A stretch of 46,665 nucleotides of DNA from a virus. Shown one piece after another: positions 7,641-45,602 of the stretch. Numbering within the stretch: position 1 is the stretch's first letter; each line of letters starts with the position of its first letter. Under the pieces are notes generated by a model. The model had not been told where the DNA came from. It ran no database searches and was given only the letters and a program-made list of their open reading frames with translations. The stretch spans positions 1-46,665 of IMG/VR virus record IMGVR_UViG_3300008267_000612; one strand, written 5' to 3'. A program made the translations under genes and the position numbers.

Positions 7641-7648
7641 ATAATATT

Positions 7649-10600
7649 ATGGAAAAAAAATGTTCGGTAAATATACCACAGGTATTAGCTTATATCAAAG
7701 ATAGAGTGGGTAAAGACGTAAAGTTTAAAAACTTTGACGAAGTTGCTAAGGATATTCTTAATACCAAGGGACAACCTGATGATGCTAAGATGATAGTGTT
7801 AAAGGCTTTAGCTAATATGTATAAGTCATTAGCTTTAAAAAATCCTGAGTTTGTTATAGATAAAAAAGCTGATTTAATATTAAACACTCCATTACAGACA
7901 GCTGATCTTAGTGCTTTACATAATGATGTTAGAAAAAGCTATTTACCAGGGGCAGCTAAAGTTGTAAGTATAAATACTTCAGATGATCTTATTGAATATG
8001 TAGAAAAGTTAAAAGACCTATCTGATTATGAATTAATAGAAGGTAGCAAAATTATATTTAGTTCTATAGGAGTTATGTTAAACAAAGGTTCTGTAATGTC
8101 AAAGATGACAATAAAGAATAATTTATTGTTTGCTATTACTAGATTTGAAGAACTTATTAAAGCAAATTCTAATGTTTTAGATAAAACTAAAGATATTATT
8201 CAGAAAAAGTTAAACAGTATTAAAGTAGATGTTACAGGTATAAATTCTTATGCTCCTCTAAACACTACAAAATATGGTGAAGCTTTTAGAATCTATGATA
8301 AAAATAGTAAGCTTATAGATCAAGTTTATTTAAATAAACAAGATGGTCAATATTATTCTTTATCTAATCCTACAAAACAGATTGATGTTCAAGCTCTTAA
8401 AGATAAAGGCTTTAGTGTAGAACAAATCATCTATGATACAAGATTAAGTTCAAGATTTGAAACTGTAGAACATGGTAGAGTTAGATTGCTTAATAGCAAA
8501 GAACTAACTGCTGGTTTATCTTTAGGTAGATTTACAAATGAAGGTTTAAAACAAGCTCTTTTATCAGTTTCTGATCCTAATAATTTTATCACTGTAGTTG
8601 CTTCAAAAGTAAATATTAAACAGAATCAAGAAAGACTCAAGAGAATACAAGAAGATATTCCTGGCAGAAATCATGAGACTTTTGAATCATATGAACAACA
8701 GTTAGCTTTAAGAGATGGTAATTCTATTGCAACAGTGTCATCTCCTACAAAAGGAGTATCTTTAAGAATAGAGGGTCCTGGTGTAGAAGGGTTAGCTTTA
8801 ATTTATGATATTACAAACTATGTAATAGTTAACTCTGATAATACCACTGAAGCTATTGACTTTTCAGATCCAGCACAAAGAGAACTTATTAAAAAGTATT
8901 TTAAAAAGACTGGTGCTAATCAGACTGCAGTGGAGTTGTCTGATTATGATTTGCAAAGACTAGCTTCTTTGCACTCTGTAATATCTCAGTTTAAAAATAT
9001 TGCAGCAGATTATTTAGAGAAGAATGGAGGAGATGAAGTAGAACTACCTAAAGAATTATACAAAGATGTAATATCACTAGGTAAAACAGACTTTAATCGT
9101 CAAGCTGCAGCTGTTAAATCAGAGCAAGAAGGTGCATTGTTATCATCGGCATTAGAAGATGAGAAGAACAAAAAGTGGATGGTTGAAGTCGATGTTGTTA
9201 AAACTGACGATACAGGTGCTGAAATAGAAAGAGAAAAAAGATCTGTACCCATCTTAGTTAAGAAGGTTCAACGTGAGTGGCAGTTTGTAAATGGTGTATT
9301 AGATGACAATGAGTTTGTAGATTATAATGGTGAGCTTCTTCCTTTAGAAATATACTTAAACAATGTATATCCAGATGCTAAAAATGTACATTCTATTGTA
9401 CCAGGGTTTCCTCAGCATATAGGATATGCTATGATTCTTCCTAAAAATGAACTTAGTAATAACTACCAAGTTATAGGAATGAACAGAGACTATGGTGCGG
9501 ATCCTGTAATGAACTTCCTTAAGTTTATACATAACTTAAATAACTTAAAGAAAGAAATATCAAAAAATCCATCTGATCAAAACAGACTTACAAAAAGTTT
9601 TAATATTGAGCAGTATGGTTTTTCTCCAGCCTATGGTTGGGGTTCTGATCTAGCATCTTATGTAGATAAGAAAGGAGAAGTGACTTTCCATTATGAGATA
9701 AGGCCTTTAAGTAATAAAACCTTAAATGATGACTCTAAATTAAAATCAGCATCTAGATTGGTATTTGGTCAAGGCGTGATGGATGAGGTTACTAAGTTTA
9801 TAAATAAAAATACTACAAGTGAATCTTTTAAAAAGTTTTTAGCTGATAACTATCCTCAGTTTGGTAGTATGCGTGATCTAGTTGATTCTAAGACAGGTGA
9901 GCTTGGTCAAGTGTTTTTTAATGTAGTTTCTAAATACATAGAGAGTAAACCAGATCTTAAAAAAGATTTAGAAGGAATGTATGATGTGTTTACATCAGCT
10001 CTTGCTAGAAACATGGAGAATGTTCAGAAGAAGTTTAGAGAGGCTGGTTATGGTGAACAACCTAGTCTTTACACTATGTTAGAAAATGAGAGTAAAGATT
10101 TAAAAGGCAGATGGTTCTTAAAAGTTAATGATAAGAGTGTTAACCTAAACTTTATGAACTTAGATCAGTTTAGATTGACAACCACTCAAGATCTAGCTAA
10201 AGCTAGTAATTTATATTTAGAATCTCCTATAGCAACATATTTAAGTGAAGGTTCAACACAACAACCTACAGCACCAGTAACACCTCCTGCTGCTCCTGTT
10301 GTACAACCTGCTCCTGTTTCCACAGATGCTAAAGCTGATATAGAAGCTAAGAAAGCTGATATACAAAGAAGAAGAGATATTAGTTTGCGAGGCATAACAC
10401 AAACCAGTCTTAACTTTGATGCAGATAGAGGGTATGTAGGAAAATATAATATAGCTGGTACTGAAATTATAGACAGTAATGGTAAACCTTCTACTTTATT
10501 TAAAGAAACTGAAACTATAAGAGAAGACACAAAAGAAGAAGTAGAAAAAGAACTTAATGCTAAATACGATGCAGAACTAGCTGCTTTAGGAAGTAAGAGT

Positions 10601-13600
10601 ACTACAGATGCTAAAGCTGATTTATTTAAATCTATTCCTCAGCTTGGTTCTATAGGAACAGCTGAACAATATTCAGCATATTTAAATTCTATATTTCCTG
10701 ATAGTAAAGTAAAAGATATTGTATACCATGGTACAGAAAAAACTTTTGATAAATTTTCTAAAGATGCTGAAAAAGTAACTATTGCTGATCAAGGTATATT
10801 TTTTGCACCAACAAGAAATCAAGCAAGAAATAGTGGTAAAAATATAATACGTGCTATTATTAATATTAATCCTTTAATATCTGATGATAGACTTGAAAGA
10901 ATTTCTGAAAATAAAAAACAAGACTTATTAAGTAAAGGTTATACAGGTTATGTTTATTCTTATAATAAAACCATAAGTAGTGCTGATGATATTGTTGTAT
11001 TTGAACCAGAGCAAATTCATATATTAGGTAGTAATGATGATATAGAAGGATTTAAAAATTTTGTAAATGATTTAAAAGGTGCTGTTACTAATCCAGAATT
11101 AGAAGCTAAGAAAGCTGAATTTGAAAAGGCTAATGATGAAGTAATGAGACTTGCTAACATTAGATCTAATGATAATGTTGTAAGGCAAGCTATTATGGAT
11201 TCTAATAAAGGAAAAATAACTATAGATCAGTTAGATTCTACATTTAAAAAATGGGATGATGAAAACGGTATGACTGAAGCTATTGCTAACTTTGATAGAA
11301 TAAAAGCTGAGTTATCTGCTTTAGAAAGTGGAAAAACTACACAAACATCTGATATAGCTAAAGGTGAATCTCTTGTTAGAGAAATGCTATCTAATAATGG
11401 TAGACTATACACTGACTTTAGTGCTGAAGAAAGAGGTTTAATAGATGGCATATCTATAGGAAGAAAAGAAGAGATTAGAAAAGAAATAGAAACTAAAGAA
11501 ACACCTGGAAATACTACACATAAAATCACTGAGATGGATGAAGATCCATTTAGTCTTGTAGGTGTAGATGAACCAGTAGTTATGTATAACGACCAGTCTT
11601 ATAAGTCAGAACTTGATTGGTTTAATAAAAACATGCCTGCTGAGTTTAAATTAGAAGATCTTAGTAAGATTATAGGAAACTTAAAAGCAGAAGGTCAAAT
11701 CTTAGGATATTATAAAGATCTTACATTGTATGTATCTAAGGTATTATCTGGAGAAGGATCTATATATCATGAAGCTTTCCACGGTATTTTTAGAAATGTG
11801 CTATCTGACAAAGACAGATCTTTCTATATTGGTAAAGCATTACAAGAACTAGGTCAAGTAACTAAAGCTGATGTAGAAAAGTTTAGAAAAGAAAGAGGTA
11901 AGTTCCATCTATCTGATGCTCAAGTGATACAAGGTATTGCTGAAGAGTATTTAGCTGATGGATATAAGAGCTATAAGTTAAATAAAGTTGAACCTGCTAA
12001 AGGGTGGTTAGCTAAGTTTGTTAGACTAATAGATAAGATAATTAAATTCTTTACTGGCAAGTCTAAAGATATTGATGCTATTACAGAGTTGTTTAATCGT
12101 ATAGATACAGGGTATTATAAAAATGCAACTGTTGTACAAAACTTTAAAGGTGAGGGTGTTTTCCAAATCATTCCTTCTAGACCAGTGATCACTGGAACTA
12201 AAGCAGATGGTACTCCTCTTATTCGTAAGTCTTACATGAATACTTATGAGCAGAATCAGTTGTTATATCGTATTGCTTTTGAAGTGGCAAACTCCCCTAT
12301 TAATAATTTTGATTTAAGATTTGACTTTGCTGTAAGTAAACTATTACAAGAATATGATATAGAAAAACTTGTAGCTGATAACAGTGGGTTGGATGAACAA
12401 AAGATAAGAAACAAGTACACTCAACTATATGATGATTATAGATTTATATTAGGTGATCCTTTTAGCACTTATAAGAATGAAAGTGGTGTAGAGTCTCACG
12501 ATGCTATAATTAGCGAGGTAGATAGATCTTCATTAGGTACTCTAGCTCTTTTGAAAGGAGAGGTTAAAAACATCCTTACTAATATTGATATGCGTTCTGC
12601 ATTATTATCAGATGACTTTCAGTTTGAAGAAGATAATGATGAAGATAAACCTAATGGATCATATGAGGACAACTATGCTAACTTAAATCCTCTTGATGGA
12701 TTGAGTAGACAATTTAGAAAGTTCTTTTCTTTACTTCCTTATGAATACAAAGACAAAGATACTGGAGTAACTGTTACTAAGATGGTGGATGGGTCAACAA
12801 CCTTTGATGCTATTATGAAAATATCAGCAGATGTTCCATATGATAGTATTATAGAAAACCTTAGAAGTGTTATTGATAGTCTTGGTGAAGAAGGTGAGAA
12901 AGATGCATATAATAAACTCAACACTGTATTTAAGTATATGGATGAAAAGTTCTTTGGATTAACTGAAGACTTCAAACCTACTAGAAACTTCAATTTATAT
13001 AATCAATTTATATCTACATTCTTTGTAACAGAAGTTTCTACAGAAATCATACATGCTACAACTAACAGTGACTATGGTACAAGAGGTAAGGTTTATGATG
13101 CTACTATACAGAGAGATATCAGCAGAGAGATTGAAAAACTTAAAATAGGTTATACATCATTCTTTAGAATGCCATCTGATGTAAAACAACAGATATTTAA
13201 ACAAGCATCTTCTGTAATCAAACAGGAGGTGTTGGCGTCATTAGATCTTAAAACTGAGAATGCTGTAGAATTAGAAAGAAAAGCTAAAGTGGTTCAGTCT
13301 GCACTAGCTCAAATAGGACTTAATTTCTCAAAGAGTATGATTAAGTTTTCTCTAGTTAATATAGATAAAATAAATAATCCATTAAAAGAATTCTCTTCAA
13401 AAAGTACAGCATCAAAGCTTATAAAGAATAATCCTATTCTTGCTTCTTCTGGTGCATATTTAAAGAAAGATTTCTTTACATGGGTGTTTGGTGCAACATT
13501 AGGTCCTGATGTTAATATATTTGAACGTACTGATTATGACAATATAAATCTAGATCCTGAGGATTTAGAAGAAAAGGACATTATAAAAGAGCAAAGATCA

Positions 13601-16600
13601 CCACAACAGAAAACTCAAATTGATGGTATTGCTGGTATATTAAAAGATGCAGCTAGGTTTATGATTAAGTATAATCCTAATGCTGCAGTGAGTGTATTCC
13701 AGGATGCTCAGAATAAAAATGTATACAGATACTTAAAGTACACCCCGTTGTTGTTAATGGCACAAACTGTTAAGAACAAAGGACTACAAGGATTGATTGA
13801 TGAATATCCTATATTTGAAGATTGGTTTAAAGATAACCCATACTTTAACAGTAAGGATAAAGAACTTAAGTTATACCTTGATAACTTCTCTATAAGTATG
13901 CTAGGTGGTTCACGTCAGTCTATAGAGAAATTTGAAAAAGAAGGTATTACTTTTAAGAACATGGATCCTAGAAGTAAACAGATAGCTGATTTAATTTTAT
14001 TCTCTAATAGAACTATTGTAACATCTGGTAAAACTCAGATTGTCACTTATAAAAGATCTCACTCTATTCTTGAAGCTACTTCTACAAACTTTATGGTTCC
14101 TTCAATGTATCAGCAATTATATACTAAAGAAGGTTTTATAAATACAACAGATGACACTTTAAGAGCTTATAACTTTAATACTTTTGCTAAGTTTTTTGGA
14201 AAGACGTCTTATGTTCATCCTGATTCAACAATACAAGCTGATAGATTAGACATTGGTGAAAGACTAATTGAGAATGCTAAAGCAGGTATTCCTTTTAAAG
14301 ATATCCTTAAAAAAGAAAGATATAGTGATGAGCTTACTAAACTAAAAAGTTTATTAGAAGGATATGCTGTAGATGAGTTTTATGATTACTTAGATAACTT
14401 AGCTGCAACAGGTGTAATTAATCCTCTTGAAAAAGGAGGGTTCACTTCAGAATTAATTCCTACAAGTGTTAAAACAGGACCTGGTAATTATGCTTCTTTA
14501 GATCAAATGAATCACAATCTTGAAAGTTTCCTAGCAGATTACTTTTATAATGACTGGATGAGTAGAGTTTTTGTATCTCAGTTCTTTGATGGTGATGCTG
14601 CTGTTACAACAGAATCTGCTACTAAATATGGATTACGTAATAGATTTGCTGTAATTAAAGGTGACTCTATGAGAGATGGTTTCCACACAGTTGCTTACAT
14701 CAACAAGCTTAAAGTATGGATGCATAAGTCTGATATTGAAGCAGGTCAGTATGATAATATAGATGATGTTCCAGAAGAATATAGAATAGATGATAACTGG
14801 AAAAATAACTGGGAGAAAGTGGATGTTGCTGATGGTCAGAGCTATACAACAGTGGAACATAGAATTGACATGTACAATAAGCAAGGTAGAATAGAAGAGG
14901 ATAGAAGTTTGGATAATGATGAAGGGTATTCTGTATCTGCAATTTTACAGAAGTCTAGAATAGAAAGACTTACTAATGAAGAGATAAAGTATATTGAGAA
15001 ATTTAAAGTGGTGTTGGGTTCTTATAAAACAGCTACTGGTGGTATGATAGAATATCATAAATTATCAGAGCATATTCTATTAAGGACAGATGTTAGCTAT
15101 ATTAAACCTTTAGGAACAGATAGTATTGAAGATTCTAAAAAACTTTTAAAATCTTTATACTCAGAAGCAGATAGACTGAGAGAATATATTAATCAGGGTA
15201 ATGAGTCAATCTTAATACCTGAGTATAATGCTACTCCTAGAGAAGCTCTTAAAGAAATATATAATGATATACATTCATTATTCCAACCTAGACCTGGCAG
15301 AGAGATGTTACACAACATGCTCAACTCTATGGAAATGCATGGTATAGATCAGTTGATAGATGTTAACGCATCTAAGAAGGGTACACTACTAGCAATAGAC
15401 TTAGTTAAAGATGGTATTACAGATTTAAGTTTGTCATCTAAGCAGGTACCTAATAAGTTTAAAATGATGCAGGTGGAAACATCTGGTGTTTCTAGAAAGA
15501 TAACTAATCCTACACAGAAACAACAATTGATAGATGCTGATATAGATATCAGTGATGAATCAGATGTGCCTAAAGATCTTAAGAATGCAGTTAAGAATTA
15601 TAGAAAAGCTCTAGAGCAGCATTCTATGCTTTCTTTAAATGATATAAAATTAATATTAGATAGACCTGATGGGGAAGTAAACATCACTCCTATTATTGCT
15701 ACAATGAGAAAAGGTCTTGAGCAACAAGGTGCTGATGCTAACATTCTTAAGTTTTTTGAGATTGATGAAAAAACAGGAAAACCTGTATACAATATCAATC
15801 TCCCTATGAGAAAAGCAATGTTCCAAAACTACTTCTTCTCTTTATATTCAGATAATGTATTTGGTGGTAAAGTGAGTGGTAGAAAAGACTTTGAGGTTTC
15901 TTCATTTGGTTACAAACTAGTTGTTGATGAAAATGACAATGTAATTAAACAAGATGAGATAGATAAAAACCCTGAGAAGTATGCTGGATATAAAACTCGT
16001 TACCCTGGTGTTAAAATAGAAATAGATGAAAATGATAATATTACTTATGTTGTTGAAGTAATTATACCAAAACCTTTATTTAATAGTAAGCAGGAAGAAG
16101 AGTTATACCTAAGAAGACTTACTAAAATGATCTCCACTCGTATTCCTACAGAGGATAAGAGATCTATGGTGGTTGCTAAAGTGGTAGATTATATTGATGG
16201 ATCTTATCAGAATGCTGTTATAGTACCTCAATTAATACACAAACTAGCAGGATCGGATTTGGATATTGATGCTTTGTATTCTCAAACCTTAGCTACATAT
16301 GAAGATCTAAATGGTAAGATGCATGTGTATGGAGAATACGACACTCATGAAGGTTTAGAAACAGAAGAAGCTAAGTTCTTAGAGTATCTTCTTAATAGAT
16401 CTGAAAGTGATATTTTTGCTGGTGATATAGACTTAGAGTATGATAGAATTCTTAATGATACAGATAGTATTACAGAATTACCTGATGCTATGGAAAAACT
16501 TAAAGATTATTTAGGTCTTCCTGGATTAGGTATCAATAAAGAAAACATTAAGGAAAGAATTAAAGAACTCAACGAAGCTAGAAGATCATATTATACTACT

Positions 16601-19600
16601 TATCAAACAGTTAAACAAGCTAGACAAGAAGTATATGACTTATACGTTAAACTTAGAAGTGAGAATGAAGCTATTTGGGAACCTGCATTTAAGAGTGTAG
16701 TAAGAGATCTTAAAGAAGCTGGTGAAAAGTTTGATGAGAGTGATGAACAGTTTCAAAGAAGTGTTTCAGAACTAGTTTACAATAGACTATCTGAGTCAGA
16801 CCGTAAAAAGATTGACTGGAAAGGTCAAGGTAAACTATCTTCTGAGTTAAGAAGGTATGAAGAGCAAGCTAAGATGGCGTTTAATATAATGACTGGTGGT
16901 AATGCAGAATATGCAGATGCTAGAAAAGAAGCTAAGAAAGTTATTAAAATGTTTGAGAAGCAACTGAGAATGATTGCTACTATGAATGTCTTAGCTAAGT
17001 ATAAGCAACCAGTTAATATAAATGATTTTAAAAAGAGAACCAAAGAGTATGTTAAAGAGGTTGTTCAGAATAATAACATGAAGCAACAGATGAATATTCT
17101 AGGTAGCGCTTATGTATTTAATTATTTATATAAGAATGAAGAGTCTTCTGTGAAATCCTTTAAAGATTTAGGTAAAGCTTTGAATGAATCTATTGATACT
17201 AAAGTGGAAGCATTTGATAGACACACTCCTACATTCGGTGTTAATGTAATGGGTATCAACTCAAATAGTGAAGGTGGTATTGGTATAGCTGCAACAGCTA
17301 ATAAAGCTACTGCATTCATGACAAAGTTTGGTGTTAGACTTCTTAAACCTATTTGGGAAATTAATGGTGAGGTGTATAAAGAATATACAGCATATAGTAC
17401 TGATGATAAGGACATAACAAGAGTTATTAAGTCTATTGGTAAAGCTTTGGGTATGTTTGCTGATGCTAAGAAAGAACCATATCCTTCCATATTAAACCTT
17501 AATGAAACCACAGCAGGTGTGAGTTTAGGAATGATTGCTCAAGGTGTTCCTGAAACAGCAGCATATTTAATCAATAAGATACCGTTAATAGAACAATCCA
17601 TTTTAGAATCAGAAAGAAAAGCATCTGGTGTTCAAACTGTACAAGAATACTATGAGCGTAATAATCTTAAGAAGACTTTGAATAGAGCTATGGATATTGA
17701 AGTAGCTAATATTATAAAAAGTAAAGAAAAAGAATTATTATTTGCTAAAGATAAATCAGGTAAGTTTACTGATAAACTAAGACCTATTGTTCTATCTTTT
17801 AACTTTGATATTAAAGAGTCAAGAACCAGAGAGAATCTTGAAGACTTAGGATTTACAGCTGTATACAAAGGAACAGATGAAAGAGTACCTGATAATGTTT
17901 TACAAATACATCTTATAGATATGTACATCAAACAACTTGATTTGAATAATGATGTATTAGCTCTTGGTAAAATATTGAACTTAATTAAAAAGCAAGAACC
18001 TAGCTGGAAAAACTTGGATGATATTGTTAGATCTTACATGTATTTAACAAATAGATTAAGCAGGACTCCTAATTTCACTAATATGAAGGACATATTAGAG
18101 AATAGAGCTAAAGAATATAAACCTTTAATTGAAGCTGTATTACATTTATACTCTACTTCAGAAAAAGTATTTCTTGAGAGAAACCCTGTGTTTAAAATCA
18201 TAAATGAAGAACTTGAGAATAGTATGTATTCATTCGGTATGTCTGATACTATTCTATCAAACTTGAACAGCTATCCTGTTAAATTCTTACTGGTTAATAA
18301 GTTTAAACAAAGAACTCAAGAGCAGTTGGATTCTGAGATGAAATCTGAAAACCCTAGAGAAGAGTTGATTGAAAAGCTTAAAAATAGATTAAGCATGCTA
18401 TCTGCTGACTTCTGGATGAATAAAGATACAGAACTCACTCCTACATTAGAGGATGATGTAAACTATCTACAAAAAGAATATCCTGATAATGCATTTGCTA
18501 ATTTTATTAAAACAAGATCCCTTAATGGAGTTATTCTTACAGAAGCTTTAACAAGGATGAAGCTTGATAGTGAGATGACAAATAGTATTATTGATGGATA
18601 TAATCTATTACAAAGAAGTCTAGATAAGAGAACTAGAATTATTGCTGATAAATTGTATATGTATTTGTTGGTTAAGGATAACCTAGGTATGAGTAATAAT
18701 AGTTTTATTAACTATTTAAATCCTTCTTTATATAAATCAGTTAGTCAAGACTTAGATGAGATACAAAAGATATTAAACCAGACTTTGGTTTCTAAAAAAG
18801 GTAGAGATAGAATGGTTAAAGGAGAGCCTTTCAAAGAGTTCTTTAATAATAAAGACTTGGATCTTCCAGCATTGCTATCTAATATTTATTTTAAAGCAAT
18901 GTCTCATGTAGGAAACAGAAGCTTTTTACATTCTTCTAGAATGTTTTTACCTGGAGCTCTTAAAGGCATTCTCTCTAGTAAATTATCAAGATTAAAATCT
19001 GAAGATTTATTAGATTTGATGTCAAAGGTTGTACCTATGTCTACAAGTGTTAACTTGAATGAATTATATGAATTGACTGTAGAAGATAGATTGTATGATG
19101 TGTATACGCCTGATTCTAAAGAATTAGATAAAGGAACTGCTATTGTTGATATGAGTATTATTAATGATCCAGGTGATATAGGATTACCTCCTATGCAAGA
19201 AGAACTAGCAAGGGCTTTGAAAGTTTCTCCTCTTTATAAATATGAATCAGATGGCAAAAAAGTATTTACAGGTTGGTCTTTCCCAGGAACTGTAGTTAAT
19301 TCTCAAGGTCAGCTTTTAAGACTTGATAGTATTGATGGTAAACCAGTTGGTCAGTTTTTAGTAGAAAAACTAAATGATCGTCTTATTAATACAAGACTTA
19401 ATTCTGATTATGCAGTTGGAGGAATGAGAGCTGTTTATAAAGTTTCTCAGTTTGAAGGTACAGATAGAATACTAAACACTGTATTTAGTACAGAAGATGC
19501 TAGGGATTTGTATGAGTTTGTTGAAAGCTCTAGAACCTATTCTATGGTGAAAACTACAGAAGAGTTTGACAAATTTATAGCTAGAATGTATAGTGAAAAT

Positions 19601-20473
19601 GGCATACCTATTCCAGCATTAGAATTACTTCAGAAGTGGGTGAAAAAAGATTTTGATAAATATGGTTATATTAAGTTTGGTAATAAGGGGGTGTACACTC
19701 TAAAATATTCTAAACCAGTTAGTGAATATGAACCAGATAATCAGTATATTTTAGAGCTGAGACCTTCTGATAAAGGAGATGGGTCTACTATAGTTGGTAC
19801 ATTATTCTTAGTTACTAATGGTGCTTATAGACAAACTTTCCAAAAAGAGTTTAAAGCTGTTGAGTATCAAACACTTAGTAAAGAGGAAAGAAAGAAACTG
19901 AGACTTGCTGAGGAAGAAAGAATAAGAGATGAGAAAGCTATGGAAGCTACTCTTAGATTATTCCCAGGACTAACTAGAGAAGAAGCTATAGAAAGAGGAC
20001 TTATACCTGATCCAGAATTAAAGAAACCTGCTGAAGGTACAAAAGCTGATGCTGAGGCATTAAAGTATTATGCTAGCTTATTAGGTTATATAAATGGTAT
20101 AAAAACCATGGATGAGTATAAGTTTATAAATGGTTTACAGTTTAATATAAATTTTGTAAAGAGTATTCCAGAAGGATTGTTTAACAATGTTGCTGATGCA
20201 ATTGAACAAAGAGGAGACAGACCTTTTGAAACTCCTACTGGAGATATGGTTATTCCAGATTTTTTACAGAAATTTACAATGAAAAAAGAAGTAAAAGCAA
20301 TTGAATCTAAAGATTTTACAGAGAGTGATCTTAAAACTATCTATGACGCAAGGATTAGTAAAACAGATCTTTCATTTGATGATTTTAAAAACAAAGCTTC
20401 TGATGTAATTGTTAGAGGTGAAAAAAATAATTTAACAAAAGAAGACATTATTGACGCATTAAAATGTTTATAA
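7649..20473 (+). CDS. Giant multidomain protein: ART-like, zincin and virion RNA polymerase core (4274 aa)
   Basis: The start is the ATG at 7649 (TAATATTATG context, as in the next gene), not the in-frame TTG at 7634. Recognisable parts in order: a Pro-rich linker near residues 872-890; an ADP-ribosyltransferase-like domain at about 1020-1130, with YHGT (H1027), GIFF and FEPEQIHIL (1118-1126); an intact zincin motif HEAFH at 1374-1378, followed by EEYL as possible third ligand; and a single-chain RNA polymerase core. The core shows RIPTEDKRS followed by GSDLDIDALY, with D2870, D2872 and D2874 as the DxDxD metal ligands. An upstream segment at about 2595-2625 (KQVPNKFKMMQ, NPTQKQQL) may be the Lys-bearing partner barrel. 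The order resembles cellular beta' (RxPTLHR then DFDGD). It is roughly twice the length I recall for the phi14:2 virion RNA polymerase. It probably travels in the virion and transcribes early genes; the zincin could process the polyprotein. The polymerase call is confident, the other roles are inferred. Confidence 0.85.
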   Translation: MEKKCSVNIPQVLAYIKDRVGKDVKFKNFDEVAKDILNTKGQPDDAKMIVLKALANMYKSLALKNPEFVIDKKADLILNTPLQTADLSALHNDVRKSYLPGAAKVVSINTSDDLIEYVEKLKDLSDYELIEGSKIIFSSIGVMLNKGSVMSKMTIKNNLLFAITRFEELIKANSNVLDKTKDIIQKKLNSIKVDVTGINSYAPLNTTKYGEAFRIYDKNSKLIDQVYLNKQDGQYYSLSNPTKQIDVQALKDKGFSVEQIIYDTRLSSRFETVEHGRVRLLNSKELTAGLSLGRFTNEGLKQALLSVSDPNNFITVVASKVNIKQNQERLKRIQEDIPGRNHETFESYEQQLALRDGNSIATVSSPTKGVSLRIEGPGVEGLALIYDITNYVIVNSDNTTEAIDFSDPAQRELIKKYFKKTGANQTAVELSDYDLQRLASLHSVISQFKNIAADYLEKNGGDEVELPKELYKDVISLGKTDFNRQAAAVKSEQEGALLSSALEDEKNKKWMVEVDVVKTDDTGAEIEREKRSVPILVKKVQREWQFVNGVLDDNEFVDYNGELLPLEIYLNNVYPDAKNVHSIVPGFPQHIGYAMILPKNELSNNYQVIGMNRDYGADPVMNFLKFIHNLNNLKKEISKNPSDQNRLTKSFNIEQYGFSPAYGWGSDLASYVDKKGEVTFHYEIRPLSNKTLNDDSKLKSASRLVFGQGVMDEVTKFINKNTTSESFKKFLADNYPQFGSMRDLVDSKTGELGQVFFNVVSKYIESKPDLKKDLEGMYDVFTSALARNMENVQKKFREAGYGEQPSLYTMLENESKDLKGRWFLKVNDKSVNLNFMNLDQFRLTTTQDLAKASNLYLESPIATYLSEGSTQQPTAPVTPPAAPVVQPAPVSTDAKADIEAKKADIQRRRDISLRGITQTSLNFDADRGYVGKYNIAGTEIIDSNGKPSTLFKETETIREDTKEEVEKELNAKYDAELAALGSKSTTDAKADLFKSIPQLGSIGTAEQYSAYLNSIFPDSKVKDIVYHGTEKTFDKFSKDAEKVTIADQGIFFAPTRNQARNSGKNIIRAIININPLISDDRLERISENKKQDLLSKGYTGYVYSYNKTISSADDIVVFEPEQIHILGSNDDIEGFKNFVNDLKGAVTNPELEAKKAEFEKANDEVMRLANIRSNDNVVRQAIMDSNKGKITIDQLDSTFKKWDDENGMTEAIANFDRIKAELSALESGKTTQTSDIAKGESLVREMLSNNGRLYTDFSAEERGLIDGISIGRKEEIRKEIETKETPGNTTHKITEMDEDPFSLVGVDEPVVMYNDQSYKSELDWFNKNMPAEFKLEDLSKIIGNLKAEGQILGYYKDLTLYVSKVLSGEGSIYHEAFHGIFRNVLSDKDRSFYIGKALQELGQVTKADVEKFRKERGKFHLSDAQVIQGIAEEYLADGYKSYKLNKVEPAKGWLAKFVRLIDKIIKFFTGKSKDIDAITELFNRIDTGYYKNATVVQNFKGEGVFQIIPSRPVITGTKADGTPLIRKSYMNTYEQNQLLYRIAFEVANSPINNFDLRFDFAVSKLLQEYDIEKLVADNSGLDEQKIRNKYTQLYDDYRFILGDPFSTYKNESGVESHDAIISEVDRSSLGTLALLKGEVKNILTNIDMRSALLSDDFQFEEDNDEDKPNGSYEDNYANLNPLDGLSRQFRKFFSLLPYEYKDKDTGVTVTKMVDGSTTFDAIMKISADVPYDSIIENLRSVIDSLGEEGEKDAYNKLNTVFKYMDEKFFGLTEDFKPTRNFNLYNQFISTFFVTEVSTEIIHATTNSDYGTRGKVYDATIQRDISREIEKLKIGYTSFFRMPSDVKQQIFKQASSVIKQEVLASLDLKTENAVELERKAKVVQSALAQIGLNFSKSMIKFSLVNIDKINNPLKEFSSKSTASKLIKNNPILASSGAYLKKDFFTWVFGATLGPDVNIFERTDYDNINLDPEDLEEKDIIKEQRSPQQKTQIDGIAGILKDAARFMIKYNPNAAVSVFQDAQNKNVYRYLKYTPLLLMAQTVKNKGLQGLIDEYPIFEDWFKDNPYFNSKDKELKLYLDNFSISMLGGSRQSIEKFEKEGITFKNMDPRSKQIADLILFSNRTIVTSGKTQIVTYKRSHSILEATSTNFMVPSMYQQLYTKEGFINTTDDTLRAYNFNTFAKFFGKTSYVHPDSTIQADRLDIGERLIENAKAGIPFKDILKKERYSDELTKLKSLLEGYAVDEFYDYLDNLAATGVINPLEKGGFTSELIPTSVKTGPGNYASLDQMNHNLESFLADYFYNDWMSRVFVSQFFDGDAAVTTESATKYGLRNRFAVIKGDSMRDGFHTVAYINKLKVWMHKSDIEAGQYDNIDDVPEEYRIDDNWKNNWEKVDVADGQSYTTVEHRIDMYNKQGRIEEDRSLDNDEGYSVSAILQKSRIERLTNEEIKYIEKFKVVLGSYKTATGGMIEYHKLSEHILLRTDVSYIKPLGTDSIEDSKKLLKSLYSEADRLREYINQGNESILIPEYNATPREALKEIYNDIHSLFQPRPGREMLHNMLNSMEMHGIDQLIDVNASKKGTLLAIDLVKDGITDLSLSSKQVPNKFKMMQVETSGVSRKITNPTQKQQLIDADIDISDESDVPKDLKNAVKNYRKALEQHSMLSLNDIKLILDRPDGEVNITPIIATMRKGLEQQGADANILKFFEIDEKTGKPVYNINLPMRKAMFQNYFFSLYSDNVFGGKVSGRKDFEVSSFGYKLVVDENDNVIKQDEIDKNPEKYAGYKTRYPGVKIEIDENDNITYVVEVIIPKPLFNSKQEEELYLRRLTKMISTRIPTEDKRSMVVAKVVDYIDGSYQNAVIVPQLIHKLAGSDLDIDALYSQTLATYEDLNGKMHVYGEYDTHEGLETEEAKFLEYLLNRSESDIFAGDIDLEYDRILNDTDSITELPDAMEKLKDYLGLPGLGINKENIKERIKELNEARRSYYTTYQTVKQARQEVYDLYVKLRSENEAIWEPAFKSVVRDLKEAGEKFDESDEQFQRSVSELVYNRLSESDRKKIDWKGQGKLSSELRRYEEQAKMAFNIMTGGNAEYADARKEAKKVIKMFEKQLRMIATMNVLAKYKQPVNINDFKKRTKEYVKEVVQNNNMKQQMNILGSAYVFNYLYKNEESSVKSFKDLGKALNESIDTKVEAFDRHTPTFGVNVMGINSNSEGGIGIAATANKATAFMTKFGVRLLKPIWEINGEVYKEYTAYSTDDKDITRVIKSIGKALGMFADAKKEPYPSILNLNETTAGVSLGMIAQGVPETAAYLINKIPLIEQSILESERKASGVQTVQEYYERNNLKKTLNRAMDIEVANIIKSKEKELLFAKDKSGKFTDKLRPIVLSFNFDIKESRTRENLEDLGFTAVYKGTDERVPDNVLQIHLIDMYIKQLDLNNDVLALGKILNLIKKQEPSWKNLDDIVRSYMYLTNRLSRTPNFTNMKDILENRAKEYKPLIEAVLHLYSTSEKVFLERNPVFKIINEELENSMYSFGMSDTILSNLNSYPVKFLLVNKFKQRTQEQLDSEMKSENPREELIEKLKNRLSMLSADFWMNKDTELTPTLEDDVNYLQKEYPDNAFANFIKTRSLNGVILTEALTRMKLDSEMTNSIIDGYNLLQRSLDKRTRIIADKLYMYLLVKDNLGMSNNSFINYLNPSLYKSVSQDLDEIQKILNQTLVSKKGRDRMVKGEPFKEFFNNKDLDLPALLSNIYFKAMSHVGNRSFLHSSRMFLPGALKGILSSKLSRLKSEDLLDLMSKVVPMSTSVNLNELYELTVEDRLYDVYTPDSKELDKGTAIVDMSIINDPGDIGLPPMQEELARALKVSPLYKYESDGKKVFTGWSFPGTVVNSQGQLLRLDSIDGKPVGQFLVEKLNDRLINTRLNSDYAVGGMRAVYKVSQFEGTDRILNTVFSTEDARDLYEFVESSRTYSMVKTTEEFDKFIARMYSENGIPIPALELLQKWVKKDFDKYGYIKFGNKGVYTLKYSKPVSEYEPDNQYILELRPSDKGDGSTIVGTLFLVTNGAYRQTFQKEFKAVEYQTLSKEERKKLRLAEEERIRDEKAMEATLRLFPGLTREEAIERGLIPDPELKKPAEGTKADAEALKYYASLLGYINGIKTMDEYKFINGLQFNINFVKSIPEGLFNNVADAIEQRGDRPFETPTGDMVIPDFLQKFTMKKEVKAIESKDFTESDLKTIYDARISKTDLSFDDFKNKASDVIVRGEKNNLTKEDIIDALKCL
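10322..10339 (+). repeat. 18-bp direct repeat A, copy 1 (linker)
   Basis: ACAGATGCTAAAGCTGAT occurs here and exactly again at 10604-10621, in the same reading frame (TDAKAD, residues 892-897 and 986-991). The second copy is the left border of the ART-like domain. Confidence 0.85.
10342..10359 (+). repeat. 18-bp direct repeat B, copy 1 (linker)
   Basis: AGAAGCTAAGAAAGCTGA lies 2 nt after repeat A copy 1 and recurs exactly at 11101-11118, in the same frame (EAKKA, from residues 899 and 1152). The second copy is the right border of the ART-like domain. Confidence 0.85.
10604..10621 (+). repeat. 18-bp direct repeat A, copy 2
   Basis: Exact copy of 10322-10339. It immediately precedes the ART-like segment (LFKSIPQLGSIG and on) of the giant protein. 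Confidence 0.85.
11101..11118 (+). repeat. 18-bp direct repeat B, copy 2
   Basis: Exact copy of 10342-10359. It follows the end of the ART-like segment after about 25 residues (residues 1127-1150). Confidence 0.85.
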
Positions 20474-26879: not shown

Positions 26880-26910
26880 AAAAAGGGAGCTTAATTGCTC
26901 CCTTTTTTAA
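26878..26910. terminator. Bidirectional terminator between converging units
   Basis: A-run plus GGGAGC, loop TTAATT, then GCTCCC plus T-run make a GC-rich hairpin with A/T tracts on both sides, so it can stop transcription from either direction. The + gene stop (26877-26879) overlaps its left edge, and the - gene stop TAA lies in the loop (26891-26893). Confidence 0.9.
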
Positions 26911-27349
26911 CTTCAAATGGATGTTTCATTAAGAAACAATCTTGTTCCCATCCCATGTGTTTTTTAAACCCATTGAGAAATTCTTGAATATTCTTAGAAC
27001 CTACAGGATTATGTGAATGCACACAACATCCTTTTAAAGGAACATTCATTTTTTGAGAATACTCTACTACAAAGTTAGCACAGTCCATCCCAGTCTTCTC
27101 TTTATAAGTTTCATATTCTGGAATTTGAAATCCTTGTTTAGCAAACTGACTATAGTAGTCATTCATATGTTCTTCTGCTAAATCATGGTCAAAGCTGATT
27201 AAATCTGGGATACCATTTTCTATAATCCATTTAGTAAACTCATCGTAGTTTCTCACTACATTCCATGGTTCATAATTAGGAAGAGTTTCTATAGGTGTAC
27301 GCACATCATCTAAGTAGAGTGCTATTTTCTTCTTGCTCATATATTTCAT
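26891..27349 (-). CDS. Cyclic-phosphate-processing receiver-like (cREC) domain protein
   Basis: The 152-residue protein has the pattern of the cREC family, a receiver-like fold proposed to act on cyclic nucleotide or RNA-end phosphates. It shows LYLDDVRTP (D14, D15, R17), ISFDHDL (D54, H55, D56), a central GMDCANFVVEY helix, and HSHNPVGSKNIQEFL near the C-terminus. These acidic and histidine residues are the expected metal or catalytic positions. A second possible start at Met4 would change little. It overlaps the 3' end of the upstream gene by 44 nt and is last in the replication-side unit, ending inside the bidirectional terminator. A part in RNA repair or in countering nucleotide-based defence is plausible but unproven. 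The family call rests on motifs recalled from memory. Confidence 0.7.
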   Translation of the reverse strand: MKYMSKKKIALYLDDVRTPIETLPNYEPWNVVRNYDEFTKWIIENGIPDLISFDHDLAEEHMNDYYSQFAKQGFQIPEYETYKEKTGMDCANFVVEYSQKMNVPLKGCCVHSHNPVGSKNIQEFLNGFKKHMGWEQDCFLMKHPFEVKKGSN

Positions 27350-39538: not shown

Positions 39539-40102
39539 TTAAATTGCACTGTTATAACCTTCATCTGTAATATCTGGTAAATCATTATTATCTAGTACAG
39601 TGTCACACCAACTAGCTAATACTGATACTACAGTCTTATCTGGGTTCGCTTTACTTATAAAATATGTTGAAGTTTTCATATACTTATAGTCTTCTGTTTG
39701 ACATGCGTCTATATACTTTTTAGTAGCTTTTAAAACAGTATCCCAAGTGTGGTCATAGTTATTAAAAAACCATAAAAATTTCTTTTCTAACTCTTTAACA
39801 GGGTTTCTTGCAGGTAGTCCATAAGGAAGATTACCTTTAGGAAACAATTCTCTATACTGAGCTACATAAGCTTTATCTTCTTCTGACAACACTTTCTTTT
39901 TAGAGTTTAGTATATTATTTATAACCTCTTCTCCTTTTTCTGTTATCCCTATATCTGTAATAAGGCCATTAGCAACTAGCTGTTTTAGTTCGTTATCTAT
40001 ATTTGATAATCTAACTTCATCTTCTTCTTTTATTGTTAATAGAAGATAGAAACCATTAGGAGTTATTTTGTTATCTATTATCTTGTTAAATAATTTTATC
40101 AT
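39539..40102 (-). CDS. Winged-helix-like replication accessory protein (187 aa)
   Basis: Residues 1-65 look like a winged helix: TPNGFYLLLTIKEED, then a helix LSNIDNELKQLVANGLITDI and the wing GITEKGEEVIN. The remainder (GNLPYGLPARNPVKELEKKF, TWDTVLKATKKYIDAC, KTSTYFISKANPDKTVVSVL) is a helical block I associate with replication-region proteins of Bacteroidota phages, of unknown role. It overlaps the DnaA-domain gene by 17 nt and lies upstream of the helicase, so a helicase-loader or origin-binding role is possible but unproven. Confidence 0.6.
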   Translation of the reverse strand: MIKLFNKIIDNKITPNGFYLLLTIKEEDEVRLSNIDNELKQLVANGLITDIGITEKGEEVINNILNSKKKVLSEEDKAYVAQYRELFPKGNLPYGLPARNPVKELEKKFLWFFNNYDHTWDTVLKATKKYIDACQTEDYKYMKTSTYFISKANPDKTVVSVLASWCDTVLDNNDLPDITDEGYNSAI

Positions 40103-40568
40103 ATTTCTCTTTTATTTTTTCAACAATGCTTATATAAATACATTCATAATTTTGATCATACTTCATGAGGTTTTCTGCTTTTTTACTAAGATGCATTATC
40201 GTACTATGATCTCTATCTATGTATTTGCCTATTGTAGAAAAACTAAAATTAAATCTTCTAGCTATATGTGCAAATATAGATCTTGCATCTACTATTTCTT
40301 TTTTCCTACACTGATGTTTTAAATCACCGTTCTTTAGTTTATAAGGGTAGTGCTCCATAATAACACTTTCTATATCACTTAAAAAGACAACAGGATAGTC
40401 TTGATCTGCTTTATTATCTGAACCTGTCATTTCTTTGTTAAGTGCTGGATTACTAAGCTGGACAGTTATTTTCAACCCTGTCTTGTACTTAAAATCTTTA
40501 ACAAAATCTTTTATTAGCTTTTCTGCTAATACGTTTCTGTACTCTAGTGCTGTCATTGTATTTTTCAT
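40086..40568 (-). CDS. DnaA domain IV-like DNA-binding protein
   Basis: Residues 88-137 match the C-terminal DNA-binding domain of DnaA: RKKEIVDARSIFAHIARRF, FSTIGKYIDRDHSTIMHLSK. The DRDHST signature (118-123) is that of the DnaA-box reading helix. The AAA+ part of DnaA is absent; the first 85 residues are a separate, unrecognised region. It is the first gene of the minus-strand replication unit and faces the 230-nt gene-free stretch, so it probably binds there. This is the strongest contextual hint that the adjacent structured element has a replication role. It could instead act as an early regulator. Confidence 0.85.
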   Translation of the reverse strand: MKNTMTALEYRNVLAEKLIKDFVKDFKYKTGLKITVQLSNPALNKEMTGSDNKADQDYPVVFLSDIESVIMEHYPYKLKNGDLKHQCRKKEIVDARSIFAHIARRFNFSFSTIGKYIDRDHSTIMHLSKKAENLMKYDQNYECIYISIVEKIKEKYDKII

Positions 40569-40601
40569 TTAAATTTAAAATTGGTGAATTGTTTGTTTTT
40601 T

Positions 40602-40614
40602 AGTATATTATATT
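40602..40614 (+). promoter_or_regulatory. Candidate phage promoter box AGTATATTATATT
   Basis: Identical over 13 nt to 749-761. It ends 18 nt before the first paired base of the structured element, a distance that would place a transcription start close to the 5' edge of that element. The box is AT-rich, so chance recurrence cannot be ruled out by eye. Confidence 0.4.
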
Positions 40615-40632
40615 GTAGAATAAGTCTTCTGT

Positions 40633-40761
40633 AAAGAACCTTGGTACTGGGATTTCTCTGTAAATCCTGGGTTAACAAGTTCTGATTAACCTGCACATCC
40701 TCTGTGCTACAATGGCGTAACTAATTGTAAATCAGGATTTTATACCCAGTACTGGTTCTTT
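40633..40761 (+). ncRNA. Four-way-junction structured element (putative small RNA or cruciform origin)
   Basis: Pairings that can be read directly: P1 pairs 40633-40640 (AAAGAACC) with 40754-40761 and 40643-40651 with 40745-40753, 17 bp including one G-U and a 2-nt bulge. P2 pairs 40662-40669 (AAATCCTG) with 40733-40740, 8 bp. Three hairpins follow inside P2: 40670-40675 with 40686-40691 (6 bp, 10-nt loop), 40693-40697 with 40703-40707 (5 bp, 5-nt loop), and 40708-40713 with 40724-40729 (6 bp, 10-nt loop). Almost no unpaired bases separate the helices at the junction. It is not a tRNA: no 7-nt anticodon loop and no TTC loop. Strand is given as + because of the upstream box, but as DNA the fold is symmetric. 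Confidence 0.7.
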
Positions 40762-40798
40762 AAATTTTAATTGTTTATACATGTAAAATGGTTTAAAG

Positions 40799-41134
40799 AT
40801 GATGAATGAACAACTCCCACCTAAAACTTTAAAGTTAGTAAATCAGGTGAAATTGTGGTTGTTTCCAGTATTAGTGACATTGCTAGCTGGAATAATTTAT
40901 AAAGAAGTGTTAGAGATAAGATCAGATGTTAAGCAACTCTTAGCTCAGTCTAACATAGACAAAACTAAGATAGAACAGTTAGAAAAACAAGTTCAAATGT
41001 TAAATAATGCAGTATTTTTTAGGGCTAAACCTGTTTCAAAAGTGTTTTATCCTAAATCTACTGAGTTTTTATATGCTAAGCATGAAGAACCATATCATCT
41101 AGACAATGATGAAAAACAAAAAATATTAGATTAA
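40799..41134 (+). CDS. Membrane-anchored coiled-coil protein (111 aa)
   Basis: One membrane segment at about residues 19-36 (LWLFPVLVTLLAGIIY) is followed by a coiled coil at 38-70 (LEIRSDVKQLLAQ, IDKTKIEQLEKQVQML). The C-terminus is hydrophilic. Two Met codons stand in tandem at the start. It is the first gene of the plus-strand unit and is followed after 1 nt by another membrane-anchored protein. A single span plus coiled coil would suit an inner-membrane spanin or a holin-associated protein, given the holin and endolysin genes downstream, but no family is recognised. Confidence 0.6.
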   Translation: MMNEQLPPKTLKLVNQVKLWLFPVLVTLLAGIIYKEVLEIRSDVKQLLAQSNIDKTKIEQLEKQVQMLNNAVFFRAKPVSKVFYPKSTEFLYAKHEEPYHLDNDEKQKILD

Positions 41135-41135
41135 A

Positions 41136-41765
41136 ATGCTAATTAAAGAGTTAAAAAAAATTAGTCTGTCTGAAATACTAGTAATAGTACTTCTAATCAT
41201 CATACTTCTACAGAGATGTAGTAAAGATCCTGTTGTTGTAGAACAACCCACTATAAAAAGAGACACTGTTTGGGTACATAAAGATAGTACAATTACTAGG
41301 CAGCCTCAGATTATAAAGACTATTACAGTTCCTATAGAACACTGGAATGTAGAGTATCTACCAGATACATCTAGTATGGCAAAGCTTATAGCTCAATACA
41401 ATGAGCTTGCTTCTAAGTTCTTAGCTCTTAACATATCTAAAGATAGTATTGTAGTTGATTCTATTGGTAAGGTGTTTATTACAGACACTGTAACTACTAA
41501 TATCATAAAGAATAGAAAGCTTACATATGATTTTAAGTTTCCTATAATCACTAATACAATCACCATCCCTGAACCTAAGAGAACACAGTGGTATGCAGGT
41601 GGAACTATACAGGGTGAGCAAGGATCTCTCATTAGTCAGATTAATGCTAACCTGTTGATAAAGAACAAGAGAGATCAGATGTTTGGTGGACATGTTGGAC
41701 TAAACAGATCTGGTGCTTTACAAATAGGTTTATCTAGTTTCTGGAAAATTAAATTACATAAATAA
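41136..41765 (+). CDS. Membrane-anchored protein with beta-rich C-terminus (209 aa)
   Basis: The N-terminus has a membrane anchor at about 12-26 (EILVIVLLIIILLQ) followed by RCSKDP. There is no good lipobox, because Arg precedes the Cys. A middle region (about 90-110) is helical. The C-terminal 70 residues are beta-rich (WYAGGTIQGEQGS, FGGHVGLNRSGALQIGLSSF). Proteins with this layout (anchor, DTVWVHKD-type strand region, YAGG end) recur in Bacteroidota phages. With the preceding gene it may span the envelope during lysis. This is inferred from layout only. Confidence 0.6.
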   Translation: MLIKELKKISLSEILVIVLLIIILLQRCSKDPVVVEQPTIKRDTVWVHKDSTITRQPQIIKTITVPIEHWNVEYLPDTSSMAKLIAQYNELASKFLALNISKDSIVVDSIGKVFITDTVTTNIIKNRKLTYDFKFPIITNTITIPEPKRTQWYAGGTIQGEQGSLISQINANLLIKNKRDQMFGGHVGLNRSGALQIGLSSFWKIKLHK

Positions 41766-41772
41766 ATATAAA

Positions 41773-42576
41773 ATGAATCCTATATCTACTGACATATTTG
41801 GAAGACTTAAATGGTTAACAGATAAAATTAAAAGACTTTTTGGTAGTGTTACTTCTTTAGATGAAAGAGTCACTGCTATAGAGAATGGTGGAGGTGGCGG
41901 TAGTGAAGGTCCTGGAGGAACATCTGTAAACTTTCAACTTATAGATCTTTCTGCAGCAGACTACACTATAGCATTGCCTGGTGTATATGATATTATTAAT
42001 CCTGATGGTGGTTATGAAATTATTATAACATGTAATCCAGCAGATAATAAGGGAAAAACAATAACATTTATCAATAAGGGTGACTCCACAGCTCCTATAA
42101 GCAGTTCTGAATGGGTGCCTTATTATCAAGGAAATCTTGCATCAACATTTGTAAATGGTATAAATGCAGGTGCTGTACTTGAAATTGTAGCTGTTTTTGA
42201 TTCAATACATGATAATGGATGGAGAACAAAACCTACAACATTTGTTCAAAGTAAAGATAATGTAGTATTGACAGATGGTGTGGATAGTTTTAATCTTTTT
42301 GTTGCTGTAGATGGTGGTGGATTTTATATAATAGATGCAGCAAATGATGCGATGTCTTTTGGTGGAGTTGTAACTTTTCCTAGTCCTGCTGATTATGAAG
42401 GACAAAGAGTTGTTATTATAAATAGAGATCCTACATATAATGCTACTATAGATTCTTCTGGAAGTATACCAGTAGAACTAGATGGTACTACTCTATCAAT
42501 TATTCCTGCAAGCAGCACTAATGAGTTTATAGCAACAACTGATAATTGGTATTTATTAACTCAAAGAATTATTTAA
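41773..42576 (+). CDS. Tail appendage protein with two beta modules (267 aa)
   Basis: A short N-terminal helical/coiled-coil piece (LKWLTDKIKRLFGSVTSLDE) is followed by a Gly-rich linker at about 38-48, then two beta-rich modules of roughly 100 residues each. Both modules share the pattern of a GKTITFINKGDST or GQRVVIINRDPTYN strand pair and a late DNGW/DNWY strand, so they look like an internal duplication. This is typical of phage fibre or appendage proteins that trimerise through the coiled coil. Receptor or target unknown. Confidence 0.65.
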   Translation: MNPISTDIFGRLKWLTDKIKRLFGSVTSLDERVTAIENGGGGGSEGPGGTSVNFQLIDLSAADYTIALPGVYDIINPDGGYEIIITCNPADNKGKTITFINKGDSTAPISSSEWVPYYQGNLASTFVNGINAGAVLEIVAVFDSIHDNGWRTKPTTFVQSKDNVVLTDGVDSFNLFVAVDGGGFYIIDAANDAMSFGGVVTFPSPADYEGQRVVIINRDPTYNATIDSSGSIPVELDGTTLSIIPASSTNEFIATTDNWYLLTQRII

Positions 42577-43922: not shown

Positions 43923-44672
43923 ATGAAACAAAGAGCCTTTGTAAAATACACCAAAAAAGGAGAACTTATACCAGGTAGTTTAATTATTACCAATGGTATA
44001 TATCCTTCAGGAGGTGGTTTATGGGAAGAGGTTCCTGTTAATTGGACAGAAGGTACTACAACAACTACCAGTACTTCAACAACAACAACAACAATTAATC
44101 CTGATACATTATGTGTATCTGTTCCAGGATGGTCTACTCATAATCTAAATGTAACATCTTATAGAAATGGAGATCCTATTCCTGAAGTAACAGACCCAAC
44201 ACAATGGGCTAATTTAACCACCGGCGCTTGGTGTTGGTATAATAATGACAGTGCAAATGGTACAGTGTATGGAAGATTATACAATTGGTATGCTGTTAAT
44301 GACCCAAGAGGTTTAGCACCTATAGGTTATCATATACCAACAGATGCAGAATGGACAACTTTAAGTAATTGTTTGGGTGGTTCAACAATAGCAGGTGGTA
44401 AAATGAAAGAAGCTGGAACTAGTCATTGGAATCATCCAAATACTGACGCAACTAATAGTAGTGGTTTTACCTCGCTAGCTAGTGGATTTCGTCATGATGA
44501 ATTTAATAATGCTAGTTTTATAGGTATGGGTGCTAATCTTTATTATTGGTCATCTACAAGTAGTGGTACATTCTCAGCTTTTATAAGAACTTTAAACTAT
44601 GCAACTGGAGCATTGACAAGAACTTTTTTTAGTAAAAGAGGGGGATTATCTGTAAGAGTAATAGCTGATTAA
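43923..44672 (+). CDS. FISUMP/lectin-like receptor-binding protein (249 aa)
   Basis: Residues 1-38 form a short module (MKQRAFVKYTKKGELIPGSL and on) that is shared with the next two genes. A Thr/Ser linker follows at about 45-58. Residues about 64-249 match the Fibrobacter succinogenes major paralogous domain: YGRLYNWYAVNDPRGLAPIG, GYHIPTDAEWTTL, GGKMKEAG, GFTSLASGFRH, YYWSSTSS and GGLSVRVIAD. This domain has a C-type-lectin-like (formylglycine-enzyme-like) fold. It is likely a swappable receptor-binding tip joined to the virion by the shared module. No diversity-generating retroelement is visible in the window. Confidence 0.75.
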   Translation: MKQRAFVKYTKKGELIPGSLIITNGIYPSGGGLWEEVPVNWTEGTTTTTSTSTTTTTINPDTLCVSVPGWSTHNLNVTSYRNGDPIPEVTDPTQWANLTTGAWCWYNNDSANGTVYGRLYNWYAVNDPRGLAPIGYHIPTDAEWTTLSNCLGGSTIAGGKMKEAGTSHWNHPNTDATNSSGFTSLASGFRHDEFNNASFIGMGANLYYWSSTSSGTFSAFIRTLNYATGALTRTFFSKRGGLSVRVIAD

Positions 44673-44828: not shown

Positions 44829-45602
44829 ATGAAAAAAAGAGCATTTGTAAGGTACAGTAAGCAAGGCAAAATTGTACCTGGTAGTATGATCCTAACAGGA
44901 GGATCTCATCCTTCAGGACCATCTACATGGAAAGAAGTTCCAGCAGACTTGTGTTGTAATACTCTTCAAGAGGGATACACATGCTGCATAGCAATACAAG
45001 CTATTGCTGATGGTGAAAGTGAGTTGTATGGTTTTACATTAGAAACTGTAAACGGTGGACCTAATTTAACAGGAAGTATTCAATGGACATCTGCTGTGAG
45101 CGAGAATTTTTCTTTAACTGCTGATGGGAGTAATTATAATTTTGAATACAACTTTGGAGATCAGATTCCTCACACTGTATACTTGTGTATAAATAATCCT
45201 AGTCAGATTCAAGACTTTGAGATTGGTTTTGGTCCTGGAACTGCTGTAGCAATAAGTAATCTTCAATTACTAGAAGGTATTGATGAATGGGATGGTGATA
45301 ATATGGCATTTAGATCTTTAGATTTTACAGGAATTACTACTATTACACAAATATTTAACATTGATACAGGATTGCAACATATAAATATTACAGGTTGTGT
45401 AAACTTGAATGATGTTGATTTAAATAGTAATGCTTTAACAGAAGCTTCTGTAGATCATGTTCTCATTACACTTGATAATAGTGGCCTTACTTATGGATAT
45501 GTTTCTCTTGATGGAGGTACTAATTCTATACCATCAGTATTAGGTGATGCTGCCATAGCTAATCTTTTAACTAAAAACTGGACTGTAAGTTATAACTCTT
45601 AA
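44829..45602 (+). CDS. Appendage protein with shared N-terminal module and LRR-like C-terminus (257 aa)
   Basis: Residues 1-39 are the third copy of the shared module (MKKRAFVRYSKQGKIVPGSM, then HPSGPSTWKEVP). A Cys-containing stretch follows (DLCCNTLQEGYTCC, 42-54). The middle is beta-rich. Residues about 160-257 resemble leucine-rich-repeat-like phage tail proteins (LQHINITGCVNLNDVDLNSN, then ALTEASVDHVLITLDNSG and the GGTNSIP end). A receptor-binding or fibre-tip role is likely from the module and the neighbours. Confidence 0.65.
   Translation: MKKRAFVRYSKQGKIVPGSMILTGGSHPSGPSTWKEVPADLCCNTLQEGYTCCIAIQAIADGESELYGFTLETVNGGPNLTGSIQWTSAVSENFSLTADGSNYNFEYNFGDQIPHTVYLCINNPSQIQDFEIGFGPGTAVAISNLQLLEGIDEWDGDNMAFRSLDFTGITTITQIFNIDTGLQHINITGCVNLNDVDLNSNALTEASVDHVLITLDNSGLTYGYVSLDGGTNSIPSVLGDAAIANLLTKNWTVSYNS

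Follow-up and report, generated by a model that had tools for sequence, protein, structure and literature searches.

A probable branched RNA element directly behind a promoter-like box in the genome of a putative crAss-like virus

Introduction

What kind of molecule is the branched fold that fills the gap between two divergent genes of the virus genome analysed here, and on what would it act? The window, by which we mean the whole stretch of 46,665 nucleotides that was analysed (IMG/VR record IMGVR_UViG_3300008267_000612), contains at 40633-40761, between a DnaA-domain gene on the - strand and a gene for a 111-aa protein on the + strand, a sequence that folds into a four-way junction. An earlier note, made from the letters alone, had offered two readings, namely a structured RNA of the phage, about 130 nt long, that starts from a box near 40602, and a cruciform replication origin recognised by the DnaA-domain protein.

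From protein similarity and layout, we provisionally call the genome crAss-like: the best matches of its helicase are crAss-like genomes (35% identity), and its 2133-aa ORF matches cr116_1 weakly. Elsewhere in the window, the 152-aa product of 26891-27349 on the - strand carries a cyclic-phosphate processing receiver domain, cREC_REC (PF20274, E 1e-19), that of 43923-44672 in the lysis/tail operon (249 aa) carries a Fib_succ_major domain (PF09603, E 3e-41), and the single ORF of 4279 aa at 7634-20473 has no clear match in Pfam or PHROGs.

Results

The RNA fold of the element has an MFE of -44.5 kcal/mol (z -5.66), and with DNA parameters z is -6.34. The earlier note's stems, that is 17 bp, 8 bp and three hairpins of 5-6 bp at a junction, were reproduced by the RNA fold; they had been described as exact complements, which is true of nearly all pairs, the exception being one G-U wobble in the inner part of the closing stem. 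The further claim that such a fold is unlikely by chance is borne out by the shuffles, as none of 200 dinucleotide-shuffled sequences was as stable, and by pairing that is kept with compensatory changes in other genomes. The features of the locus are as follows.

40086-40568, - strand: divergent neighbour, 160 aa, with a DnaA C-terminal helix-turn-helix (PF08299, E 7e-13)
40600-40618, + strand: promoter-like box TTAGTATATTATATTGTAG, which hardly varies among dozens of relatives, where it precedes the same membrane-protein gene
40633-40651, + strand: 5' strand of P1 (8 bp, UU bulge, 9 bp), from the fold and from pairing in nine type I/II genomes
40633-40640 (AAAGAACC) with 40754-40761, + strand: outer part of P1, 8 bp, from the RNA fold
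40641-40642, + strand: UU bulge in P1, from the RNA fold
40643-40651 (GGTACTGGG) with 40745-40753, + strand: inner part of P1, 9 bp, 8 Watson-Crick pairs and 1 G-U
40652-40661 and 40741-40744, + strand: asymmetric internal loop between P1 and P2, 10 x 4 nt, from the RNA fold
40662-40740, + strand: four-way-junction core of P2, H1, H2 and H3 (model R1), from the covariance model and pair changes
40662-40669 with 40733-40740, + strand: P2, 8 bp, from the RNA fold
40670-40691, + strand: H1, 6 bp, GGUUAA-CAAGUUCUGA-UUAACC, the hairpin with the highest letter conservation
40693-40707, + strand: H2, 5 bp, GCACA-UCCUC-UGUGC, with a pyrimidine-rich loop; its stem covaries
40709-40728, + strand: H3, 5-6 bp, ACAAU-GGCGUAACUA-AUUGU, from the fold and pair counts
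40745-40761, + strand: 3' strand of P1, from the fold and from pairing in nine type I/II genomes
40799-41134, + strand: first downstream gene, 111 aa, with one hydrophobic stretch (IWRDVxEMRSD..LLAQSNIDKT family), 266 tblastn-confirmed relatives

The junction leaves linkers of 0, 1 (U), 1 (U) and 4 nt (AAAU), and the internal loop between P1 and P2 measures 8-24 nt in homologues. A pseudoknot between a 5' AGAAC and the GUUCU of the H1 loop, seen by eye, was not significant (Fisher p 0.12).

Relatives were gathered via the DnaA-domain protein and the helicase (contigs L001, L004-L007), via helicase and membrane-protein alignments, which gave about 200 further loci, and via two DNA-pattern scans of viral contigs, which added L085 and L086; 61 genomes allowed a comparison of the gap between both divergent genes. 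The core in the form found in the window, which we call type I, occurs at the same place in six distinct genomes (the window, L004, L006, L009/L088, L085 and L086), five of which keep the H1 loop letters AGUUCU. Model R1 scores 94 bits in the window and 63-88 bits in the five others, with next-best scores of at most 22 bits in 0.62 Mb searched; type I sequences are few (n=6), and the E-values of the model are rough. The earlier note had suggested a covariance model and a search for compensatory changes as the way to check the fold, and the result supports the structure. In particular, in an alignment that was fitted to the structure and is hence biased towards it, 95.7% of cells stand in standard pairs as against 86.9% in shuffles, and 12 of the 24 core pairs have changes on both sides; none of 500 shuffles equalled either value, and pairing falls to 29-44% when partners are slid by 1-3 columns. 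P1, lying outside model R1, provides an independent check on the fold. Namely, the inner 7 bp pair within their own genome in 63 of 63 cells across nine type I/II genomes, whereas between genomes with differing stems only 35% of cells are paired and complete cross-pairings number 0 of 70. Since pairing is kept while the letters change among relatives, the fold is real and not a product of chance, and it is most probably that of an RNA. An exact search for the stems in viral contigs gave no match, as one would expect of stems this divergent.

Other leader forms occupy the same site. Type II (L001, L139 and L095) has a long stem similar to that of type I at the syntenic position; its P2 is shorter, and of its two hairpins one is H2-like. 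Because R1 gives 15 bits in L095, precisely at the syntenic site, and because L095 has P1 letters GTACTGGG/CCCAGTAC in common with the window, type II is probably a diverged type I. At the same place, the long leaders of L010 and L011-L013 (type III), as well as of L173, form stems of their own, with fold z values of only -1.3 to -2.0; being only putative homologues of type I, they were left out of the pair counts.

Which strand carries the structure can be read from the folds themselves. In each of the 12 long leaders, the + strand MFE lies below that of the - strand (for instance -34.6 vs -19.5 in L004 and -48.1 vs -36.1 in L086), and the helices as read contain 24 G-U against 3 A-C pairs; these helices were chosen from + strand folds, which favours G-U, while the comparison of MFE values is independent of that choice. 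The better fold of the + strand is what one would expect if G-U pairing were confined to that strand, as in an RNA, and such a bias would not be expected of a cruciform in duplex DNA. We are therefore highly confident that the functional molecule is a + strand RNA, and the first of the earlier note's readings, the structured phage RNA, is strengthened by a recurrent box, by the + strand folds and by covarying stems.

The element begins 15 nt after the motif GTATATTATATTGTAG of the promoter-like box. At least 3 copies of the box occur in related records, each 20-57 nt before a start codon and always on the gene strand, and relatives that lack the element still have the box ahead of their membrane gene. 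A second copy in the window, TCAGTATATTATATTATAT at 747-765, lies 5 nt before the ATG (771) of a 1052-aa ORF; an inverted repeat, ATAAGTTTAGTTTTAAACTTAT, precedes this copy and may end the preceding operon. Judged by its recurrence and placement, the box behaves as a phage promoter. That it would be a late one is suggested by the lysis and structural genes behind it, taken together with the timing of gene expression reported for crAss001 and phi14:2 (PMC8375218, PMC10136315). On the - strand, a sigma-70-like promoter, TTTACA-17-TATAAT (11/12) at 40607-40635, extends over the box and is a candidate for driving the DnaA-domain operon; by inspection, neither L001 nor L085 retains its -35.

The DnaA-domain neighbour is kept in nearly all relatives, with or without the RNA. 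The 111-aa product of the first downstream gene is probably a membrane protein, judging from its hydrophobic stretch; it has no Pfam match, no relative in named phages, and its family was not found in bacterial genomes. On a tree of both flanking proteins, carriers are spread across deep branches and most non-carriers form one large clade, with at least 5 changes of state needed; this distribution is compatible with the loss of an old element in one lineage or with several gains. Between the window and L001, 98% of the helicase but only 42% of the membrane protein is shared, and their leaders are of types I and II, respectively, from which it follows that the leader region has been exchanged. 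The slot between the box and the membrane gene is taken by a small gene in L122, L142 and L150-L174, encoding a KNWKTTLGGVLAAIGSF-type or FYAQKDxxGxPIPGTMM-type protein. In relatives among L102-L147 that lack the four-way element, the box upstream of the membrane gene is often followed directly by a small conserved hairpin (locus ~2870-2990), roughly AGAAARGGG-n-UCAAANUUA-n-CCUUUUUCU.

Among genes co-occurring with the RNA, only the tail-fibre-like one at 41773-42576 (N-terminus MNPxSTDIFGRLxWLT) stands out, with homologues in carriers G001, G002, G007 and G009 and none in six non-carrier records. We rejected it as a partner of the RNA, as it belongs to the same operon and kinship explains the co-occurrence.

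No Rfam 15 family matches the element, either at the gathering threshold or at E 10. In line with the earlier note's remark that tRNA features are lacking, ARAGORN calls no tRNA in the window or in 11 related loci. What is more, the region has no relative by DNA similarity among named phages, and our literature search found no paper on RNAs or promoter motifs of crAss-like phages that describes this element.

Discussion

We take the element to be an undescribed structured RNA family, whose structure and strand are well supported and whose function we infer from its setting. The explanation that we rank first, and to which we would give about an even chance of being right, is that of a structured leader at the 5' end of the late lysis/tail operon that acts in cis via a bound protein. 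According to it, transcription would start at the phage promoter (box 40600-40618), a short way upstream of 40633; the initial ~130 nt would fold such that the long closing stem P1 presents the four-way-junction core, and the transcript would run on into the late lysis/tail operon from 40799 onwards. The core would be a likely binding platform for a phage or host protein with an action in cis on its own transcript, for which protection of the 5' end, the processivity of RNA polymerase or the timing of lysis-gene expression are candidate effects. Transcription, protein binding and the effect in cis are thus all presumed steps. Besides the fold, its covariation, the strand and the position of the box, two observations point this way. 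Firstly, letters are conserved in the core (AGUUCU in the H1 loop and UGUAAAUCAGG between H3 and P2) and P1 is conserved in pairing only, which is the pattern of a recognised core held by a stem. Secondly, a search for a G+C-rich stem followed by a T run found no terminator in 40500-41200, so read-through into the gene at 40799 is the simplest expectation. The start codon lies ~37-38 nt past the fold and is not sequestered, and a terminator/antiterminator pair is not visible. This is unlike a riboswitch-type leader, in that no expression platform, be it a terminator or a sequestered start site, is visible. Most relatives are without the element, and it is therefore not essential to the lysis/tail operon.

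The main rival, which we rank second and consider possible while clearly less probable, is a discrete trans-acting phage RNA of ~130-140 nt that would be processed from the late transcript or terminated before it, with P1 joining its ends. Such an RNA should be self-contained, as this fold is, closed by a stem of 15-20 bp and free of any expression platform. What is more, the slot between promoter and membrane gene contains nothing, a small gene or the RNA, depending on the relative, as it would for an accessory gene, and the near-identical helicases of the window and L001, which carry different types, suggest that the RNA is exchanged as a module. That said, no terminator follows the element and none is common to the homologues, there is no known processing site, and no partner protein was found. 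A broader form of this idea, which we hold more tentatively still, is that of a new class of trans-acting phage RNAs with a dedicated slot behind a late promoter, whose exchangeable types (I, II and possibly others) would switch between close relatives with the closing stem and branched layout kept.

Could the element instead be an attenuator or terminator-like hairpin that lowers transcription into the lysis genes until late? Its position directly after the promoter would suit such a role, and in relatives that lack it a small hairpin flanked by A and U (AGAAAGGG..UCAAAUUUA..CCUUUUUCU) is often present at that site. However, most carriers have no U run after P1, no terminator is called, and a terminator needs no multi-branched core with conserved sequence, so that we consider this improbable.

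The second reading of the earlier note, a DNA cruciform acting as a replication origin and bound by the adjacent DnaA-domain protein, has fared worse, and we regard it as very unlikely. It is true that a DnaA_C protein adjoins the element and that the GC skew turns at the divergence, at 40-41 kb, as the earlier note had expected of an origin. Yet the turn is also present at the same divergence in G011 and G019, both without the element, and it falls where the genes switch strand. In the tree set, the DnaA-domain and membrane genes still diverge in 49 relatives that have no such element, and the stems of the element contain G-U pairs when read on one strand and are less stable when read on the other. 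Finally, there is no DnaA box TTWTNCACA within 4 kb, the nearest being at 45184 (3 such motifs observed in the window vs 7 expected). An origin somewhere at the divergence is conceivable, only it would not be marked by the branched element.

Bacterial Y RNAs such as YrlA have a long stem with a bulge, an internal loop and a cloverleaf-like head, and the layout here is alike; unlike YrlA, however, the element has no TROVE/Ro partner gene, no Rfam match and no tRNA-like loops or tRNA call, and as the TROVE domain occurs in 0 of 22 related records (four of 118-128 kb included; the control genome was positive), a Y-RNA-like molecule bound by a Ro/TROVE protein is the least probable reading of all, with a host Ro protein still conceivable as partner. 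For crAss001, a TROVE-domain protein has been reported to be expressed early (PMC10136315).

Comparison with other known RNAs brings out what is peculiar to the element. It resembles a tRNA in that an acceptor-like P2 and three hairpins meet at a four-way junction, but for a tRNA its linkers would be on the wrong side of the junction, the loops vary in size, and ARAGORN makes no call in 12 genomes. The put RNAs of HK022 are two-hairpin elements in early operons of lambdoid phages that act on RNA polymerase. Like them, the element is a fold with which a long phage operon begins, immediately behind its promoter, and no expression platform is needed; unlike them, it is four-armed, and a relation in sequence or fold is not expected. 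Lineage-specific structured phage RNAs, such as GOLLD, are known from comparative genomics and RNA surveys (PMC2864571, PMC8040213), and they too are covarying, branched and non-coding, without known function; the present element differs in being much smaller (~130 nt), in being tied to one crAss-like phage promoter and in matching nothing in Rfam.

Judging from our literature search, which found no paper on one, structured and regulatory RNAs of crAss-like phages are nearly undescribed. If the trans-acting class were real, its members could be decoys or cofactors for host RNA metabolism or defence in late infection. The box motif provides a handle on late transcription in this phage group, and the element itself is a covariance-supported RNA with a promoter, coordinates, a search model and natural relatives with and without it, such that direct tests will be possible once a cultured member exists.
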